Below, one piece after another: positions 15,431 through 25,476 of a stretch of DNA of 64,000 nucleotides. Both the position numbers and the translations under genes were made by a program. The DNA lies in contig NZ_CP040093.1 in assembly GCF_006016075.1 (NCBI RefSeq), positions 1,777,501 to 1,841,500 on the forward strand. The letters run 5' to 3'. Under the pieces are notes generated by a model. It did no database searches, had not been told where the DNA came from, and was given only the letters and a program-made list of their open reading frames with translations. Within the stretch, counting starts at the first letter, position 1; each line of letters begins with the position of its first letter. The DNA is from Caloramator sp. E03. GTDB taxonomy: Bacteria > Bacillota > Clostridia > Clostridiales > Caloramatoraceae.

Positions 15431-16609
15431 GTGCACAATAATTATTTTATCAAAAATTTACTGGGTTTTAAAGATGTTATTATAACAAAAGTACTTGATA
15501 ATGTTTGCTATGAAATTTATTTAGAAATGAAAAAGAAGCCTCATACTTGTCCTCGTTGTAATTCTGAAACTCGTAGAGTTCACGACTATAGAATTCAACG
15601 TGTTAAACATCTTCCTTTTTTCTTAAAACCTACGGTTCTTATTATTAAAAAACGTAGGTATCGTTGTAATGTTTGTGGTAAGAGATTCTATGAAAGTATT
15701 GAATTTCTTCCTCGATATCATAGAATCACCAATCTTCTATCTCTGTATGTAATTAATGAACTTGCTAATACTTGTAGTATGTCAAGTGTTGCTAAAAAAG
15801 TTAACTTATCTGTTGATACTATAAAACGCATTTTCAATAATGTGTCTTATTCTGCTGCTACTACTTTACCTAAAATTATTGCTATTGATGAATTTAAAGG
15901 TAATTCTGGTGGTGCTAAATATCATTGTTCTATCGTTGACCCTGTTAATAGAAAAATTATTGATATTATTAAAGATAGACAGTTTCACGTCCTATCGGAC
16001 TACTTTAAAAAAATTAAAAATCGCGATAGTGTTGAATATTTTATTTGTGATATGTGGCAACCTTATATTGATTTAGCTAAAACTTACTTTAAAAATGCTA
16101 TTATTGTTATTGATAAATTCCATTATATTAGGCACGCTATGTGGGCTGTAGAAGCAGTTAGAAAACGTGTTCAAAAAGAGCTATCTGTTAAATTAAGAAA
16201 ATACTTTAAAAGAAGCAAAAAACTTATTCTTAAAAGATTTGACTTACTTGATGAAGATTCAAAGTTCGCATTACAAGTTATGTTTTCTTACAATAGCGAT
16301 TTAGCTATTGCTCATACCTTAAAAGAAAAACTATTAAAAATAATTGATACTACCTCTTCTTCTAAAGAAGCTCGTACTTTATTAAAGGAATGGATTAAGT
16401 TTGCACAAAGTAGCGGCCTTAAAGAATTTGAAAGATGTGCTAATACTTATATCAGGTATTTTAATGAAATAGTGAATTCTTTTGATATACCATATACAAA
16501 TGCTTGCACTGAAGGCTTTAATAACAAAATTAAAGTTATTAAAAGAAATGCCTTCGGCTTCAAAAACTTTGATAGGTTTAGAAATAGAATTCTTCATTGC
16601 TGTAATTAA
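15431..16609 (+). CDS. Transposase of an ISL3-family element
   Basis: The 392-residue protein shows the ISL3 layout: an N-terminal zinc ribbon (CPRCNSETRRVHDY near 39-52 and RYRCNVCGKRF near 76-86), a helix-turn-helix region (about 105-135), and the DDE catalytic domain with IAIDEFK (about 150-156), CDMWQPYIDLA (about 205-215) and EGFNNKIKVIKR near the C terminus (about 366-377). The start is GTG with AAAGGAGG ten bases upstream. Codon use differs from the neighbours: many CGT arginine and third-position T codons, whereas flanking genes use AGA/AGG, which fits horizontal arrival. It appears intact. Confidence 0.9.
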   Translation: MHNNYFIKNLLGFKDVIITKVLDNVCYEIYLEMKKKPHTCPRCNSETRRVHDYRIQRVKHLPFFLKPTVLIIKKRRYRCNVCGKRFYESIEFLPRYHRITNLLSLYVINELANTCSMSSVAKKVNLSVDTIKRIFNNVSYSAATTLPKIIAIDEFKGNSGGAKYHCSIVDPVNRKIIDIIKDRQFHVLSDYFKKIKNRDSVEYFICDMWQPYIDLAKTYFKNAIIVIDKFHYIRHAMWAVEAVRKRVQKELSVKLRKYFKRSKKLILKRFDLLDEDSKFALQVMFSYNSDLAIAHTLKEKLLKIIDTTSSSKEARTLLKEWIKFAQSSGLKEFERCANTYIRYFNEIVNSFDIPYTNACTEGFNNKIKVIKRNAFGFKNFDRFRNRILHCCN

Positions 16610-18199: not shown

Positions 18200-18508
18200 C
18201 TATCTGTTTTTCTTATACAGTTCAACAATTTCTATTGCAAGATCTCTAACTGCCATTGCTGTCATTAAATGATCCTGGGCATGAACTAATAAAATATTTA
18301 AAGCTTTTGATTTACCAGAAGCTTCTTCTTGAATTAATTTTGTTTGAAACTCATGAGCCTTACCTAATTCTATAGAAGCTTCTTTAAGTAATTTTTCTGC
18401 CATTTCAAAGTTGCCTTTTTTTGCTTCTTGTATTGCTTCCATTGAATTTGATCGACCATTACCTGCGTATAGTATTAGTTCAAATGCTACATTTTCTTTA
18501 TCTTCCAT
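18200..18508 (-). CDS. PTS lactose/cellobiose-family IIA component
   Basis: The 102-residue protein matches the all-helical IIA-Lac/Cel family: NGRSNSMEAIQEAKKG (about 17-32), the phosphorylated histidine in LVHAQDHLMTA (His76), and a C-terminal helix. It accepts phosphate from HPr and passes it to the IIB cysteine. It lies between the IIC and 6-phospho-beta-glucosidase genes in a sigma-54-type PTS operon. Confidence 0.93.
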   Translation of the reverse strand: MEDKENVAFELILYAGNGRSNSMEAIQEAKKGNFEMAEKLLKEASIELGKAHEFQTKLIQEEASGKSKALNILLVHAQDHLMTAMAVRDLAIEIVELYKKNR

Positions 18509-18550
18509 TTATATTACCTCCATAAGAATTCATGTCAAAAGTATTGATTT

Positions 18551-19882
18551 TTATTTGCTTAATGAATTATTAGCTTTATTTCCTATTGCACCTTTTTCTG
18601 CACTGCTGTATTTTCTATCAAGCATGATTATAAATGGAGTCCATATAACTAAAACAATTAAAAGATTAACAAGTTGCAAAATACCACCAGCAATTGAATT
18701 GGTTGCTAAAATTCCACTAAAGAATATAGGTACAGTCCAAGGAACGTCAACTCCAACTGGTGCTGGAACAAGCCCTATTGACATAACAAAGTATGTAAAA
18801 GCTGTAACTACCATTGGAGCTAATATCCAAGGTATTAAAACCATAGGGTTTAAAACTATTGGTAAACCAAAGGTTACTGGTTCATTTACATTAAATATTC
18901 CGGGAGGGGTTGCAACTTTGCTTATTTCCCTCAACTGTTTGCTCCTTGCAAAAATGATTATTCCAATTAATACTGCAAGTGTCATTCCTGTTCCGCCCAT
19001 TCCAACTGTAAATGTATCAATAAACTGTTTGTTAACAATATGAGGAAGATGTTTTGCACCAGCTTGATAAGCTTGGAAATTTTCTAATGATAATGCTCTC
19101 CAAATTGGGTCCATTACAGAGTTAATGATTATTTGTCCATGTAATCCGAAGAACCAGAATAATTGAGTAAAGAAAATTGCAACAAGTGTTGCTCCTAAAC
19201 TTGAACCTAATGACATAAGAGGAGCTTGAATCATTTTATATATAAAGTCGTGTATATTTCCCCAAGGTGTAAAAATAAATATTATTCTAACAAGAAGGAA
19301 AACAGATAAAGTTATAAATGCTGGAATTAATGAAGAAAAAGAACGGGAAACTGCATCTGGAACTCCTGCAGGCATTTTGATTGTCCAATTTTTTTGAATT
19401 ACTTTTCTATAAATTTCTGATGCTATAAATGCTGTAATTATTCCAACAAACATTCCTTTAGCACCAAGTCTATCAAGAGGAATAACACCATCTACAACTT
19501 CCTTTGCAGTTTTACCATATTGAAGAAATGTTGGCGTTAGAATTATAAATGCTGCAACTGAAACAGCCGAACCATAAATTGGTTCTACTTTATAGTATTT
19601 GCACAAACTATAGCCAATTCCGAATACTACAAATAATGTCATTATAGACAAAGTAGAACTAGATGCTGCACCTAATAAGTTTTTAAATTGGTTTAAGCCA
19701 TTTTCTCCAAGAATTCTATCTAAATATGGTAAGTTTGATATAACAACGAAAATTGAACCAAATATTATCAATGGTAATGTTAGCATAAATCCTTCTCTTA
19801 ATGCAGTAAGATATTTATTATTGTTTAATTTATCTGCAATTGGCATCAAATGTTTATCTAAAAAGTTCATTATTTTATCCAT
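18551..19882 (-). CDS. PTS lactose/cellobiose-family IIC permease
   Basis: The 443-residue membrane protein starts with the family's amphipathic MDKIMNFLDKHLMPIADKLN and continues with about ten hydrophobic segments. The blocks FWFFGLHGQIIINSVMDPIW (about 224-243), GGTGMTLAVLIG (295-306) and PPGIFNVNEPVTFGLPIVLN (about 327-346) identify the IIC-Lac/Cel family, the last with the sugar-binding NEP motif. It carries a beta-linked disaccharide such as cellobiose across the membrane while it is phosphorylated; the exact sugar cannot be read. It is 17 bases after the IIB gene. Confidence 0.93.
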   Translation of the reverse strand: MDKIMNFLDKHLMPIADKLNNNKYLTALREGFMLTLPLIIFGSIFVVISNLPYLDRILGENGLNQFKNLLGAASSSTLSIMTLFVVFGIGYSLCKYYKVEPIYGSAVSVAAFIILTPTFLQYGKTAKEVVDGVIPLDRLGAKGMFVGIITAFIASEIYRKVIQKNWTIKMPAGVPDAVSRSFSSLIPAFITLSVFLLVRIIFIFTPWGNIHDFIYKMIQAPLMSLGSSLGATLVAIFFTQLFWFFGLHGQIIINSVMDPIWRALSLENFQAYQAGAKHLPHIVNKQFIDTFTVGMGGTGMTLAVLIGIIIFARSKQLREISKVATPPGIFNVNEPVTFGLPIVLNPMVLIPWILAPMVVTAFTYFVMSIGLVPAPVGVDVPWTVPIFFSGILATNSIAGGILQLVNLLIVLVIWTPFIIMLDRKYSSAEKGAIGNKANNSLSK

Positions 19883-19899
19883 AATTAACTCCCCTCTTC

Positions 19900-20205
19900 T
19901 TAATTATTAATCATTTCTAATGCCATATTTAAAATTGCTCGTCCGTCACATCTACCATAGTCCATAGGTTTTATTACATCAATTTTAATTCCTAATTCAT
20001 TAGCTTTAGATTCTAATTTTGATTTTAAAAATCTCATCTGAGGTCCTATCAATAATACATCTGCATTTTTCATTTCTTCTTCTACAACATCTTGAGATAC
20101 AGCCCATATCTTGCAATCTATTCCTTTTTCTTTTGCAGCCTCTTGCATTTTCTTAACTACTAGTCCTGTTGACATACCTGATGCACAGGCTAATAAAATA
20201 TTCAT
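19900..20205 (-). CDS. PTS lactose/cellobiose-family IIB component
   Basis: About 101 residues, starting MNILLACASGMSTGLVVKKM, with the phosphorylated Cys8 in the P-loop-like CASGMST. The frame is open to 20253, but AAAGGAGGAATTATA lies immediately before the ATG at 20205, and only this start gives the family's N terminus. It transfers phosphate from IIA to the sugar on IIC. It is the first gene of the operon, 35 bases downstream of the -12 element of a sigma-54 promoter. Confidence 0.93.
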   Translation of the reverse strand: MNILLACASGMSTGLVVKKMQEAAKEKGIDCKIWAVSQDVVEEEMKNADVLLIGPQMRFLKSKLESKANELGIKIDVIKPMDYGRCDGRAILNMALEMINN

Positions 20206-20240
20206 TATAATTCCTCCTTTTATTTTTTTATCTATTAATA

Positions 20241-20258
20241 AAGCAATATACATGCCAA
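20241..20258 (-). promoter_or_regulatory. Sigma-54 (-24/-12) promoter of the PTS operon
   Basis: On the minus strand the sequence reads TTGGCATGTATATTGCTT. The invariant GG and GC are separated by exactly ten bases and the flanks agree with TTGGCAc-n5-TTGCwt. It sits just ahead of the IIB gene and downstream of a LevR-type activator gene, the standard arrangement for sigma-54-dependent PTS operons in Firmicutes. Confidence 0.88.
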
Positions 20259-20328
20259 TTTTTTAACTTTTAATTTTATTATTTTAAAACAAGTATTTTA
20301 GCTATTTTTAATGTTATGAATAATAAAT

Positions 20329-20349
20329 GGGCAGCAATTCAATCTGCCC
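20329..20349. other. Inverted repeat upstream of the sigma-54 promoter
   Basis: GGGCAG and CTGCCC pair around a nine-base loop, about 84 bases upstream of the -24 box and about 87 bases after the activator stop codon. It may be a weak terminator for the activator gene or part of the activator-binding region; on the minus strand it is followed by ATTTATTATT, not a clean T run. Confidence 0.45.
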
Positions 20350-20355
20350 GTTTAT

Positions 20356-20443
20356 TATACACAATATAATTTCATTATACACATAAAAATATTTGGTAAT
20401 TATCTTTATACACATTAAAAAATTCATTGTTTATTTTATACAC
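20356..20443 (-). promoter_or_regulatory. Four GTGTATA repeats, candidate activator-binding sites
   Basis: GTGTATA on the minus strand (TATACAC on the plus) occurs at 20356-20362, 20376-20382, 20407-20413 and 20437-20443. Spacings of 20, 31 and 30 bases put them on one face of the helix, 100-190 bases upstream of the sigma-54 promoter where enhancer sites lie. The last copy overlaps the end of the activator gene. Two more copies precede the activator gene at 23242-23256. Confidence 0.6.
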
Positions 20444-23186
20444 TTATGCTTAGAATTATCATAAGTATATAACATATTTCATCCTCTGAAAAATTTATAT
20501 GATAAAAATGTTCAATTTGAGAGAGAGCATTTTTTACATAATCATATTCTTTTGAATAAACGTCTATAATTTCCTCTCTTTTTGGGCAATTTCTAACTTC
20601 TTCTTTATTATTTGCTCTTATTATTGCACAGGCTAAATGAAGAATTAATCCTGAAACTGTGTATATATCTATGTCTTTTGTTATGTTTTCTTTTATTTTA
20701 TCTATAAAATCTATACATAAAGGTTTAAAGTCAGCTATATTTAGTTCAACTTCGTTTTCAAGACCTTCAAAAATATCTTTATAAAAATCCTCAGGTGTCT
20801 TAATTCTGTTTACTATATTTTTGATTCTTATAAAATTACTGTCTGAAAATAATTCTGCTGCTGATATAAATGGTATGTCATAAATATTAGGGTTTACAGT
20901 TCCAACTATTGCAATTATCTTTTTATTTTTTGATAGAATATTTATTGTATTATACATTTCTTTTTTATCACTTGCGGATATTGGAACTACCTGTATATCT
21001 TTTTCATTTAGATTTATTCTTTCTTCTATCATGTTTTTTAATTTTACAGCACTTCCTTCACCTGTTAAACATGTAGTAATAATTATGTTATCTTTATTTG
21101 GTATATAAGTCTGGGTAAAACTTATATTATAATTATTTAGAAAACTTACTGTTGATTTAACTTCTTCACATATTTCATGAATATTGTTATTTGTTAATGC
21201 CTTCCTTGCACATTCTATAACTAATAATGTAGATACCATGTCTATTACTCTTATTTCTATACCTGTTTCTTCGCTTATAAGCTCCCCGAACATTCTAAGA
21301 GATCCCATGTCTACTAATAGAATTACGCCAGATCCTTGATGATTTGTAATTATTAAATCCTTTATTTCTTTATAGGCAATTTTGGGTTTTTTATCTAAAT
21401 TCATATCATAAGCAAAAACGTTGTTACTACCTACAAGTTTATTAGCAACTTCAGCCATAGAAGAGGCAGTACTCCTTCCGTGTGCTGCAACCACAATTAT
21501 TGGCTTAGAAGTTAAAATTTCTTCATTTTCATCAAAACAAAGAAACATTGCAATAAAACCAACTTCATCAGCTGGAATTTTAATATTGAATTTCTTTTCA
21601 AGTTTGCTTGCTAATGATAAAGCTAAACCATATTCTTTTCCATGCTTTTGAATTATCTCTGCAAGATTATGATTAATTATATTTTTCTGTTGATATATTC
21701 TTTCAATACTTGAACTTACATGAAGACAAAGCCCATAAAATACTTTAGATGGAAATATTCTTTTTAATTGCTCTGATGCAGTTTTTAAAAAGTCTTCTAT
21801 TATTGTTATAATACTATTATCTACTATTTTAGATAGTTCTTCTTTATTTACCTCATGTTCAAATTTCTTAATATATCTATTAAAGTAATTTTTAATATCT
21901 ATTGACATTGTAAAATTTATATCTTCTTCTTCAACACCACGTTCTTTAAGTTCTTGAATTCTTTTTTCAATACTTTCATAAAAATTATCTGGAAGATTGC
22001 TATCAGCAGATTTTAGCATAAGTTTTGTACCCTTTGGTTTGAAGCTTAAGCTTACATTATCTTTTATAATTTTGTCAATTTTATCAGAATATTGTTTGTA
22101 TAATACTAATCCTTGTCTTACATTATTTGAAAAATCAGTACTGTGAACCTCTATCTTTTTCTTACCTTGGGAAACATACTTTAAAAAGGAATTTGCACAT
22201 CCAAGTTGTATATCACTTTTTAATTGTCCTACGTTTCCAGGACAGCTATATAAAAGAAGGCTTCTTAATGTATTAGTGGATACAGTTATTTCTTTGCCAA
22301 TCCTTTTAGCTTCTGTTTTAAAAAATTCGCATATAAGCTCAAACCTTTCCTCTAAGGTCCTATCTTTTAAAGGGGGGATATTTATTGTCATTGGAATTCT
22401 TCTTGTAAAGGTTGTTAATAAAGAACTATCTACATCTTCAGTTGTTGCACAAATTATAAGTATTTTACCGATTTTCTTTTTTTCTATGTCGCCAAGAGGA
22501 GTATAAATCCCTTTATCAATTAATGTAAATAACATTTCCTGACCTTCAGGAGGAAGTCTGTGAACTTCATCTAAAAATAAAATTCCTCCGTTTGCTTTGT
22601 CAACAAGTCCTATTCTATCCCTATCAGCACCTGTATAAGATCCTTTTTTGCTGCCAAAAAGATGAGCTATTAAAAGCTGGGGATTATTTGCATAATCGGC
22701 ACAGTTAAATGAAATGAAAGGTGCATTGGGAGAAATTATTCCTTTTTCTATAGCAAATTTATACATTAGCTCTGCGAACATAGTTTTTCCTACACCTGTG
22801 GGGCCTAATAGCAAAGTATGAAGTCCATTTGGAGGATATAAAATAGCAGCCTTGGCTTGTTGAATGCTTTTTTTCAAACTTTTATTGCTGCCAATTATAT
22901 TATCAAAATTTATGGCAGGTAAAATTGCATTTTGCTTATTTTCTATAGATGTATCTGCTTCAGTAGACATGTTTACTGTATATATAATAGGTTTTCCTTT
23001 TAATTTAAATATTTTACCTTCTTTACACAATTTATTAAGAACTGCACTTACATTAGATCTTTGCAAATTAAGGGCATTAGCAATTTCCATAGTGCTACAT
23101 CCAATGCTTTTAATTTTGCCTTGTTCTTTTTGCTTTTTACATTCATTATATAGATATTCGAAAATTATACTTTCTGATTTGTTCAT
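20436..23186 (-). CDS. LevR/CelR-type sigma-54-dependent transcriptional activator
   Basis: About 916 residues with the full LevR layout. An N-terminal helix-turn-helix (1-70) precedes an AAA+ domain with Walker A GPTGVGKT (128-135), the sigma-54 contact loop GSYTGA (182-187, canonical GAFTGA) and Walker B GGILFLDEVHR (200-210). Then come a first PRD (about 455-560), a mannose-type EIIA-like domain (PIIVVAAHGRSTASSMAEV, about 560-690), an EIIB-like stretch (TTCLTGEGSAVKLKNMI) and a C-terminal PRD. Activity is set by phosphorylation from HPr and the PTS. The gene lies directly upstream of, and on the same strand as, the PTS operon it should control. The ATG at 23186 follows AGGTGAT; an upstream GTG at 23195 has no such site. 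Confidence 0.94.
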   Translation of the reverse strand: MNKSESIIFEYLYNECKKQKEQGKIKSIGCSTMEIANALNLQRSNVSAVLNKLCKEGKIFKLKGKPIIYTVNMSTEADTSIENKQNAILPAINFDNIIGSNKSLKKSIQQAKAAILYPPNGLHTLLLGPTGVGKTMFAELMYKFAIEKGIISPNAPFISFNCADYANNPQLLIAHLFGSKKGSYTGADRDRIGLVDKANGGILFLDEVHRLPPEGQEMLFTLIDKGIYTPLGDIEKKKIGKILIICATTEDVDSSLLTTFTRRIPMTINIPPLKDRTLEERFELICEFFKTEAKRIGKEITVSTNTLRSLLLYSCPGNVGQLKSDIQLGCANSFLKYVSQGKKKIEVHSTDFSNNVRQGLVLYKQYSDKIDKIIKDNVSLSFKPKGTKLMLKSADSNLPDNFYESIEKRIQELKERGVEEEDINFTMSIDIKNYFNRYIKKFEHEVNKEELSKIVDNSIITIIEDFLKTASEQLKRIFPSKVFYGLCLHVSSSIERIYQQKNIINHNLAEIIQKHGKEYGLALSLASKLEKKFNIKIPADEVGFIAMFLCFDENEEILTSKPIIVVAAHGRSTASSMAEVANKLVGSNNVFAYDMNLDKKPKIAYKEIKDLIITNHQGSGVILLVDMGSLRMFGELISEETGIEIRVIDMVSTLLVIECARKALTNNNIHEICEEVKSTVSFLNNYNISFTQTYIPNKDNIIITTCLTGEGSAVKLKNMIEERINLNEKDIQVVPISASDKKEMYNTINILSKNKKIIAIVGTVNPNIYDIPFISAAELFSDSNFIRIKNIVNRIKTPEDFYKDIFEGLENEVELNIADFKPLCIDFIDKIKENITKDIDIYTVSGLILHLACAIIRANNKEEVRNCPKREEIIDVYSKEYDYVKNALSQIEHFYHINFSEDEICYILMIILSISV

Positions 23187-23222
23187 ACATATCACCTGTT
23201 TTTAAATCTATTTCAATATCAT

Positions 23223-23256: not shown

Positions 23257-23376
23257 AAGGCAATATTGGTTTTAATTTTAATTAATTTTTGTTTTCTCAT
23301 AAAAATATATTATTTTGTGCCAAAATTTTAAAAAAAGAATAATATAAATTAGAGTATTGATAGAGGAGTAGGTAAT

Positions 23377-25449
23377 ATGTTTCCTGCAAACGATGGACTA
23401 TGGACAGTATATATTAAAACTGCTCTTATTAGAAATGTCACCCCCTGCTGGGTAGACATAGTGGGCGATAATTCAAATCCTGCCTGTTACTATTATTTAA
23501 ACGATGTAGCTGTTACTCCAAGGGAAATTGCCTTTAGGATGAGGCTAAACGGAAGTCCACTTAGCAATAATCCCCTAAAATATGAGCTAAAAGAGTTCGT
23601 ATGGGGAGTACAAATAGTTGACATGTATAACTCTGTTAAATTTTCTGTATATGTAAACGCAACAACTGACAACTATGCCCTTGAGGTTTGGGATTCAACG
23701 AATACTAAGATTTATAGTACACCAATTATATTAAACAGCCCTGAAACAGTAAATGATAATGTAAGAGTAAGAAGCGCAGGAACTGTTTTCCCATGCACAG
23801 GGCCTACTATTCCTGACGAGGATTTTTTCCTCGATTTTAGAGTACCAGTAAGTGCCTTTACAGGATTTGACTTTGATACTGATACCTATAAACTTTGCTA
23901 TTTTACTTCAACTCAGGAAAACGTAATAAATAAAGATTATGAGTGCGGTGGTTTAATAAACAAACCTGAAGGTGCAGTTTTATGCGTTAGCAAGCACATT
24001 GAAAGCGGTCCATCGATTATTTGTGCATGCAGCACAGCAATATGGGTACTACATGTTGTAATAGAAAACTGTGGTGATGTTGATTTAACTAATGTTGTAC
24101 TAACTGATACTATAAATTCTGAAATTGCATCCAATGCAGATATAGTTTTAATGCCTAATGTTGGCCCTGTATTGGTTGGAAATCAGATAACATGGAATAT
24201 AGGAACTTTAATGAAGGGAGAAAAGCAAACCCTTGGTATAGAGATAACAGGATACTTTGATACTCCTGGCCATAAGATTTTCGATGAAGGAGAGGTTGAC
24301 TGCGACGAGCTTGATCCTATACCATTCAAAGATGTTGGAATAGATGTAATAAAATCTACAGATAAACTTATAGTTGAAAAAAGCATAATAGAAGGTCCAC
24401 AAAAGGTAAGCCTTTGTGATATTGAAACATGGAAACTAAGAATATATTTAAAAAATACATGTGAGGCAGATTTAGCAGCACTTTCGGTTTTTGATGAAAT
24501 AAACTGCAGCTTTTCCCTTGAAGATTCTATTGTGCTTACTCCAAGCAAAGGTATAGCCTTTGCTGATGGTAAAAAAATTTATTGGGATATTGAACTTTTA
24601 AGAGCAGATGAGGAGGCAACCCTTTATATAACCTTAAAGGGCTTTTTCGCCAAGGAAGGGCTTAATATATTTAATAAGGGATATGTATATTCAGATTGTA
24701 TAGGAGAGTTTCCTTTTGAAGATGAGGGAATAGAGGTTTTTGCTCCAGAAATTACTGATATTATAGAGGTCTATGGAAAGATACAGGATTTAAAGACAGG
24801 GCAGCTTTTAGAGGATGTTTTGGCAACAATATACGATAATAGATGCAATATAATGAGGGTTGAAACCTTCGATAAAAGATATAATATAAGCCTTAAAGCA
24901 GGAACTTATATTATAAAATTTTCAAAGGAAGGATATGTAGATAAAATATTGATAGTTGTACTTCAGTCAGATATGGATATTTATTTTGACATTAAAATGC
25001 TTAAAAGATCAGCTGTAGTATGCAGTGCTGATATTGCAAATAAAGACCTTTATCTTAGCATAATAAAAGAAAGAGTTGATGCTGATGCTGTATTCAGCAA
25101 ATCCACCTGTATAAATACTAAAGCTAAAATTGAAAATCTTTGTGATGTTGTTGAAAATATTGAGGCTAATACTGCATGCAACTCTAAACTTTTAATTGAT
25201 TTTACTATTGAAAAGAATATAGTATATAAATTAAATAATGAGAAGAATTTAAAATATGATGATTATAATTTTAGTGTTTATATACCAATCTGCAGAAATA
25301 TAGATGGATGCAGCTTTGTATATAATTATAAGTATAGTGGGAACTATTACTGTAAGGATGATAATATAGTATATAATATAGCATACATTAAATTCAACGG
25401 ATACTTTGTTTGTGACAAAGATGTTTTAGTAAATGGAGCCGATGAATAG
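23377..25449 (+). CDS. Cysteine-rich protein with two DUF11-like repeats, function unknown
   Basis: The 690-residue protein has 23 cysteines, no signal peptide and no membrane segment. An N-terminal beta-rich region (1-190) precedes two related repeats at about 201-326 and 331-457; both carry the pattern V-x-K-x-I-x-x-GP...C and end near PF-x-D/E-x-GI-x-V. They resemble the DUF11/conserved-repeat fold of cell-surface proteins. A carboxypeptidase-regulatory-like (CnaB/PEGA-type) domain follows at about 465-542 (YGKIQDLKTGQLLEDVLATI), then a 150-residue unknown tail with seven cysteines. The start has GATAGAGGAG upstream. It is monocistronic with a strong terminator. A spore-coat or exosporium protein assembled from the mother cell would explain surface-type domains without a secretion signal, but that is a guess. 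Confidence 0.75.
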   Translation: MFPANDGLWTVYIKTALIRNVTPCWVDIVGDNSNPACYYYLNDVAVTPREIAFRMRLNGSPLSNNPLKYELKEFVWGVQIVDMYNSVKFSVYVNATTDNYALEVWDSTNTKIYSTPIILNSPETVNDNVRVRSAGTVFPCTGPTIPDEDFFLDFRVPVSAFTGFDFDTDTYKLCYFTSTQENVINKDYECGGLINKPEGAVLCVSKHIESGPSIICACSTAIWVLHVVIENCGDVDLTNVVLTDTINSEIASNADIVLMPNVGPVLVGNQITWNIGTLMKGEKQTLGIEITGYFDTPGHKIFDEGEVDCDELDPIPFKDVGIDVIKSTDKLIVEKSIIEGPQKVSLCDIETWKLRIYLKNTCEADLAALSVFDEINCSFSLEDSIVLTPSKGIAFADGKKIYWDIELLRADEEATLYITLKGFFAKEGLNIFNKGYVYSDCIGEFPFEDEGIEVFAPEITDIIEVYGKIQDLKTGQLLEDVLATIYDNRCNIMRVETFDKRYNISLKAGTYIIKFSKEGYVDKILIVVLQSDMDIYFDIKMLKRSAVVCSADIANKDLYLSIIKERVDADAVFSKSTCINTKAKIENLCDVVENIEANTACNSKLLIDFTIEKNIVYKLNNEKNLKYDDYNFSVYIPICRNIDGCSFVYNYKYSGNYYCKDDNIVYNIAYIKFNGYFVCDKDVLVNGADE

Positions 25450-25476
25450 CAGATAAGTTTAACTTATCTGCTTTTT
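25448..25476 (+). terminator. Terminator after the cysteine-rich repeat protein gene
   Basis: GCAGATAAGTT and AACTTATCTGC pair perfectly around a very short loop and run into TTTTT. The stem begins at the stop codon itself. Confidence 0.85.

Follow-up and report, generated by a model that had tools for sequence, protein, structure and literature searches.

The locus and its domain plan

The window—the whole stretch of 64,000 nucleotides analysed here, from the single-contig genome (2.98 Mb) of a heat-loving, spore-forming Caloramator—carries a forward-strand gene for a protein of 690 residues. Its ATG is preceded by gaggag as the ribosome-binding site, and a terminator-like hairpin begins at its stop codon; hence, the gene is probably transcribed alone. 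The features of the locus are, in window coordinates:

23338–23346, + strand: −10-like element AATAATATA, its first 8 bases identical in four upstream regions
23377–25449, + strand: whole gene, 690 residues with 23 cysteines, ATG start, no signal peptide or LPXTG
23377–23976, + strand: N-terminal domain (N-domain), residues ~1–200, no credible Pfam match, common to Clostridia and Priestia
23977–24354, + strand: DUF11 repeat 1, residues ~201–326
24355–24741, + strand: DUF11 repeat 2, residues ~327–455, 34% identical to repeat 1
24760–25011, + strand: carboxypeptidase-regulatory/CnaB-like domain, residues ~462–545
25030–25446, + strand: cysteine-bearing C-terminal domain (tail), residues ~552–690, with a suggestive CsxC/SPOCS-like core at KLLIDFTIEKNIVY
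25448–25472, + strand: terminator-like hairpin at the stop codon, 11-bp stem and T run

The nearest named relative is that of Caloramator quimbayensis (92% protein identity), followed by those of a Caloramator MAG (85%) and Fervidicella metallireducens (47%). The Caloramator copies adjoin a PTS operon, phosphate-transport-like genes and an EF-G-like gene (names from translations), and these neighbours carry no indication of spores. Within the window, PTS-type sugar transport genes and a large regulator-like open reading frame, also named from translations, lie at 18200–23195.

An earlier note on this DNA had described 690 residues comprising an unnamed N-terminal domain, two DUF11 repeats, a CnaB-like domain and a cysteine-bearing tail, and this plan is confirmed. 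The two tandem repeats of ~125–130 residues align with each other at E 1e-23 (BLASTP). Pfam DUF11 (PF01345) matches repeat 1 only (residues 226–291, E 2.5e-6), at 28.2 bits against a curated cut-off of 24.6. The CnaB/PEGA-like domain of the window protein is missed by Pfam; CarboxypepD_reg appears sub-threshold in three of four clostridial relatives (E 3e-4 to 9e-4) and was not seen in the fourth (L010). From these matches and from the AlphaFold model, in which residues 461–540 are a fairly confident part (pLDDT ~65–87), this region is assigned as carboxypeptidase-regulatory/CnaB-like. Neither the N-domain across 11 members (best E 0.042, one member) nor the tail across nine (best P35 at E 0.0036 and SipL, PF12673, at E 0.048, one member each) has a credible Pfam match.

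The full-length AlphaFold model, built on only four sequences, is weak (mean pLDDT 56.6, with low confidence over large parts of the N-domain and tail), and its PDB matches are generic Ig/pilin-type stalks. Modelled alone, the N-domain reaches a pLDDT of 65.5 and a pTM of 0.72. Foldseek returned no match to this model with E under 0.001, and the best VIA-align hits, with a top Z of 5.0, are antibodies, level with ethylbenzene dehydrogenase chain C (Z 4.8 over 131 aligned residues, rmsd 4.1); we assign no fold from these matches. PDB sequence searches with the protein, the tail, and the whole-protein and N-domain profiles gave nothing credible.

Export signal and upstream region

The open frame of the 690-residue protein spans 698 codons (697 in two Caloramator orthologues) and opens only eight codons before the ATG; thus, no signal peptide can be encoded. 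With a top 15-residue hydropathy of 0.97 near the N-terminus and no LPxTG motif as well, the claim that the protein lacks a secretion signal and an anchor is upheld. The same holds for most relatives, as judged by crude hydropathy and not by a trained predictor. Of 17 family proteins, 16—the window protein and 15 others including one fragment (L005)—have neither a hydrophobic N-terminal stretch (maximum 1.21) nor LPxTG. The sole exception is a remote N-domain homologue in genome G122 (L154 277–5460), a protein of 1,727 residues with a signal-like, hydrophobic N-terminus (hydropathy 2.49), cadherin/Big repeats and an LPXTG anchor. It shares only the N-domain with the window protein and is not an orthologue; because of it, the N-domain family is also found in an ordinary secreted setting.

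Upstream of the gene, AATAATAT is identical in four regions (the window, C. quimbayensis, the MAG and Fervidicella), and CATAATATG stands at a similar distance in two relatives of another genus. The conserved element resembles a −10 and is a candidate promoter part. Ad hoc scans, run with no background control, gave sigma-K-type pairs close to the start in L027, L009, L010 and one of the G011 paralogues (L092); in G193, G108 and G168, complete CATAnnnTA cores accompanied by AC lie between −83 and −141. For the window gene, the same kind of scan gave no sigma-K-type pair; weak sigma-E-like pairs (5/8), again with no background control, occur at several places including −34 to −36. Sigma-70-type sites are at shuffle level.

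These observations bear on the possibility that the protein belongs to the surface of vegetative cells, where it would bind the wall or the S-layer after non-classical export, for example by release on lysis. DUF11 and CnaB-like domains are usually extracellular, the G122 homologue combines the N-domain with adhesin-like repeats, and the upstream −10-like element could also be read as sigma-A type. We nevertheless consider this unlikely, given that the 16 closer family proteins are all devoid of signal or LPxTG and that the neighbours of the relatives look like spore-surface genes, as described below.

Spread of the N-domain and length of the stalk

In the GTDB family of the host, a match to the protein is present in 10 of 17 genomes and four of eight genera. 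The seven remaining genomes have no match yet encode SpoIVA; the protein is therefore no core component of the spore. The end domains stay the same while the stalk joining them changes in length: Pfam detects a single DUF11 stretch in G013, two in G011—where tandem paralogues occur—and four in G014, as expected of a spacer. Downstream of the family genes in genus g7 lies a conserved protein of ~358 residues with 10 cysteines (L092 12449–13525, also L009 and L012), whose L092 copy has no Pfam or NCBIfam match.

The whole-protein profile reached N-domains in G010 (E 1e-37), G108 (1e-30), G193 (3e-23) and G168 (9e-12) of the order, and a DUF11 protein of 1,086 residues in G529 (E 6e-15); all five were found before being added to any profile. 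Compared with each other, the two N-domain sets give hhalign 100%. The N-domain profile matches 18 of 225 genomes of the order, a count that takes in G123, G124 and G158, whose hits were not read, and two of 391 genomes of the class, own genome included. SpoIVA is encoded in all 18 N-domain genomes of the order but also in 213 of 225 overall, so that a restriction to spore formers has no power as a test (chance of 18/18 ~0.36).

Outside the clostridia, a protein search of 72,556 plasmids matched six records, all of Priestia megaterium. No relative was found in viral contigs. The Priestia gene is a giant of 22 kb (L157 7995–17194; 13898–35998 of the plasmid pBMG2 record). Its product WP_180896462.1 resembles the window protein in starting with a homologous N-domain (hhalign 99.5%), followed by DUF11 (E 8e-8), and in having no hydrophobic N-terminus. 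It differs in its 7,366 residues, its four cysteines and its long arrays of carboxypeptidase-regulatory-like repeats, which recur about every 87 residues in a crude count of motifs. Two other records encode 7,159 and 7,457 residues, as worked out from annotated gene length. On pBMG2, polysaccharide and glycosyltransferase genes lie downstream of the giant gene, and three 'spore coat protein' genes follow ~19–25 kb downstream. Of three other records, viewed on the upstream side only, one has a spore coat gene, one has two YjcZ sporulation genes and one has neither. According to PMC4674009, the exosporium of B. megaterium QM B1551 needs plasmids. In the literature matches listed (titles and abstract openings), no description of the N-domain or of the giant Priestia protein was found.

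Cysteines and the tail

The count of 23 cysteines is correct and corresponds to 3.3% of the residues—about three times the 1.1% (156 of 13,980 residues) of 30 other open reading frames of the window, which were picked by the analyst (binomial P ~5e-6). Among these 30, the frame starting at 15431 comes close, with 12 cysteines in 392 residues. By region, five cysteines fall in the N-domain, five and four in the repeats, one in the CnaB-like domain and eight in the tail, the latter within residues 549–679. The cysteine pattern is conserved only in part: seven of the 23 positions (24, 174, 190, 347, 490, 578 and 659) hold cysteine in all seven aligned sequences, and Fervidicella keeps 14. Across the family, cysteine content spans 0.1% (Priestia) to 3.3%; hence, disulfide locking cannot be a family-wide mechanism.

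In the window protein itself, neither SPOCS/SipL (PF12673) nor the CsxC family (NF045794) matches at E up to 1, and a search of three Caloramator genomes gave no CsxC. Compared as profiles, the tail and CsxC give hhalign 2.2% (E 0.021 over 18 columns), with two of 200 shuffles as good—a chance level to be read as that of the best of five target sets. The tail may have a short core motif in common with the CsxC family, which takes its name from a C. sporogenes exosporium protein; the match is suggestive, and it would fit a docking role of the tail without proving it. As controls, the SPOCS set finds SipL at 97.7%, whereas CsxC reaches only 21% against the SPOCS set and 9% against SipL, so hhalign is weak at this distance. 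Three further assignments were tried and rejected: the tail as a SipL-type SPOCS domain (0.1–0.2%, 78 of 200 shuffles as good), the tail compared with exosporium-type SPOCS proteins of G013 (1.0%, register judged wrong, five of 200 shuffles as good) and the tail against the N-domain (0.1%).

Neighbours of the clostridial relatives

Beyond Caloramator, the genes around the N-domain relatives look like spore-surface genes. In G193, G168 and G173, a protein of ~200 residues with 20, 7 and 20 cysteines, respectively, is encoded beside the N-domain gene; the three form one family (31–44% identity). A C11 peptidase lies near the N-domain gene in G193 and G173 (47% identical to each other) and is also present in G207, a genome in which the search gave a DUF11 homologue only. 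The C11 (clostripain-family) peptidases at L088 4179–5300, L155 6702–7940 and L090 6638–7963 have, by eye, no signal peptide. They sit near cysteine-rich, N-domain or DUF11 genes and are possible candidates for processing enzymes of the spore surface. A neighbour in G010 is weakly SipL/CsxC-like (E 0.004 and 0.016, both below cut-offs). Fervidicella and G529 have a GT2 glycosyltransferase gene next to the N-domain gene or not far from it (42% identity between the two), and dTDP-sugar genes, named from translations, are also part of the Fervidicella locus.

In G013, which also has a relative of the window gene, a protein of 1,808 residues joins nine DUF11 stretches to a C-terminal SPOCS domain, both over their Pfam cut-offs. 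With an open frame of 1,814 residues, it cannot carry a signal, so this bacterial family does contain a DUF11 stalk that lacks a signal and ends in a spore-coat domain. Small SPOCS-type proteins surround it (L086 6685–17566).

With these neighbourhoods in hand, a cytoplasmic structural or scaffold protein without a spore link becomes highly improbable: it would be in keeping with the missing signal and with an apparently single gene adjoining housekeeping genes, but not with Ig-like stalk domains, the high cysteine content and the spore-type neighbours of the relatives.

An F-Anchor-3-type gene with three DUF4183 and two DUF11 stretches lies ~6 kb from the N-domain gene of G529. This proximity, together with the DUF11 stalk in common, raises the question whether the window protein anchors F-ENA-type spore fibres in the manner of F-Anchor-3 of C. 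aceticum. DUF4183 is, however, absent from the window protein and was found in none of 17 family genomes, the window's included, which makes this role unlikely. The tail, compared with a CsxA-like domain, stays within the column-shuffled null (hhalign 0.4%, score 15.4, exceeded by at least 10 of 100 shuffles), the target set being only four sequences assigned as CsxA-like by resemblance to the published architecture. Overall, we give the fibre-anchor role very little credence. F-Anchor-3-type proteins, with three DUF4183 each and DUF11, are encoded at L112 12369–15392 and L113 7493–10606 in two genomes of other clostridial families.

A probable stalk protein of the outer spore surface

Taken together, we think it likely that the mother cell makes this protein as a structural component of the exosporium or outer coat, at the outer surface of the spore. 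The reading is the best supported of those weighed, though indirectly. The analysis shows the domain plan, the missing signal, the homologues with stalks of differing length and the genes around them; we infer where the protein sits, when it is made, which way the stalk points, that it docks and that disulfides form. A spore coat or exosporium protein had already been suggested in the earlier note, and the suggestion gains from the absent signal, from the SpoIVA and three-domain SipL encoded in the host genome, from the neighbours of the relatives and from the DUF11 precedents in spores. Counting against it are promoter scans that established neither a sigma-E nor a sigma-K site, the non-spore genes around the Caloramator copies, the negative searches for CsxC and DUF4183, the family genomes that have SpoIVA but no match, the only partly conserved cysteines, the secreted G122 homologue and a tail to which no domain can be firmly assigned.

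The protein would require no export signal if made in the mother cell, as we propose. Hereby, the N-domain might act as the common assembly or binding module of the family, and the two DUF11 repeats with the carboxypeptidase-regulatory-like domain might form a rigid Ig-like stalk or spacer. The cysteine-bearing tail would dock into a basal layer, and disulfides might lock the assembly after lysis of the mother cell, in the cysteine-rich branch.

A broader idea, which we put forward tentatively and with more doubt than confidence, is that the N-domain is a mother-cell module, so far unrecognised, by which stalk proteins are directed to the spore surface in Clostridia and Bacilli alike, whether the stalk is a single DUF11 unit or a plasmid-borne array of ~7,000 residues. 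If true, this would explain Ig-like 'extracellular' domains in proteins without export signals, and the N-domain would serve as a single sequence marker for spore-surface stalk proteins that are now scattered as DUF11 or carboxypeptidase-like. Apart from a handful of species, little is known of clostridial spore surfaces. In Priestia, such a gene sits on plasmids, and this is a species where an exosporium is known to depend on some plasmids.

Comparison with known systems

DUF11 in spore proteins has been published before; what is probably new here is the unnamed N-terminal domain on a DUF11 protein of spore-surface type. In the appendage cluster of C. taeniosporum, four of nine proteins have DUF11 within their repeats, the longest of which (CRD1) measure 127 residues (PMC5749712). 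CRD1, CRD2 and P29a/b of this cluster, compared by their description in that paper only, resemble the window protein in their DUF11 repeats and are encoded with known spore appendage proteins. The paper also cites CrdA–C as spore proteins from the B. cereus group, and its abstract states that other clostridia lack significant orthologues.

F-Anchor-3 of C. aceticum offers a second likeness, as a predicted spore-surface tether with a variable number of DUF11 domains—zero to four across homologues, as given in PMC11952670. It bears DUF4183 and CsxA-like domains, whereas the window protein has no DUF4183 and its tail gave no CsxA-like match above the shuffled null.

The third comparison is with the cysteine-rich exosporium proteins CsxA–C described in PMC4942563. 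CsxC/SPOCS proteins (NF045794, PF12673) are cysteine-bearing and located in the exosporium according to that source, and the tail of the window protein may share its short core motif with CsxC, a likeness that is only suggestive. Whereas the window protein has no PF12673 match, the G013 protein combines its DUF11 repeats with a true SPOCS domain in one chain.
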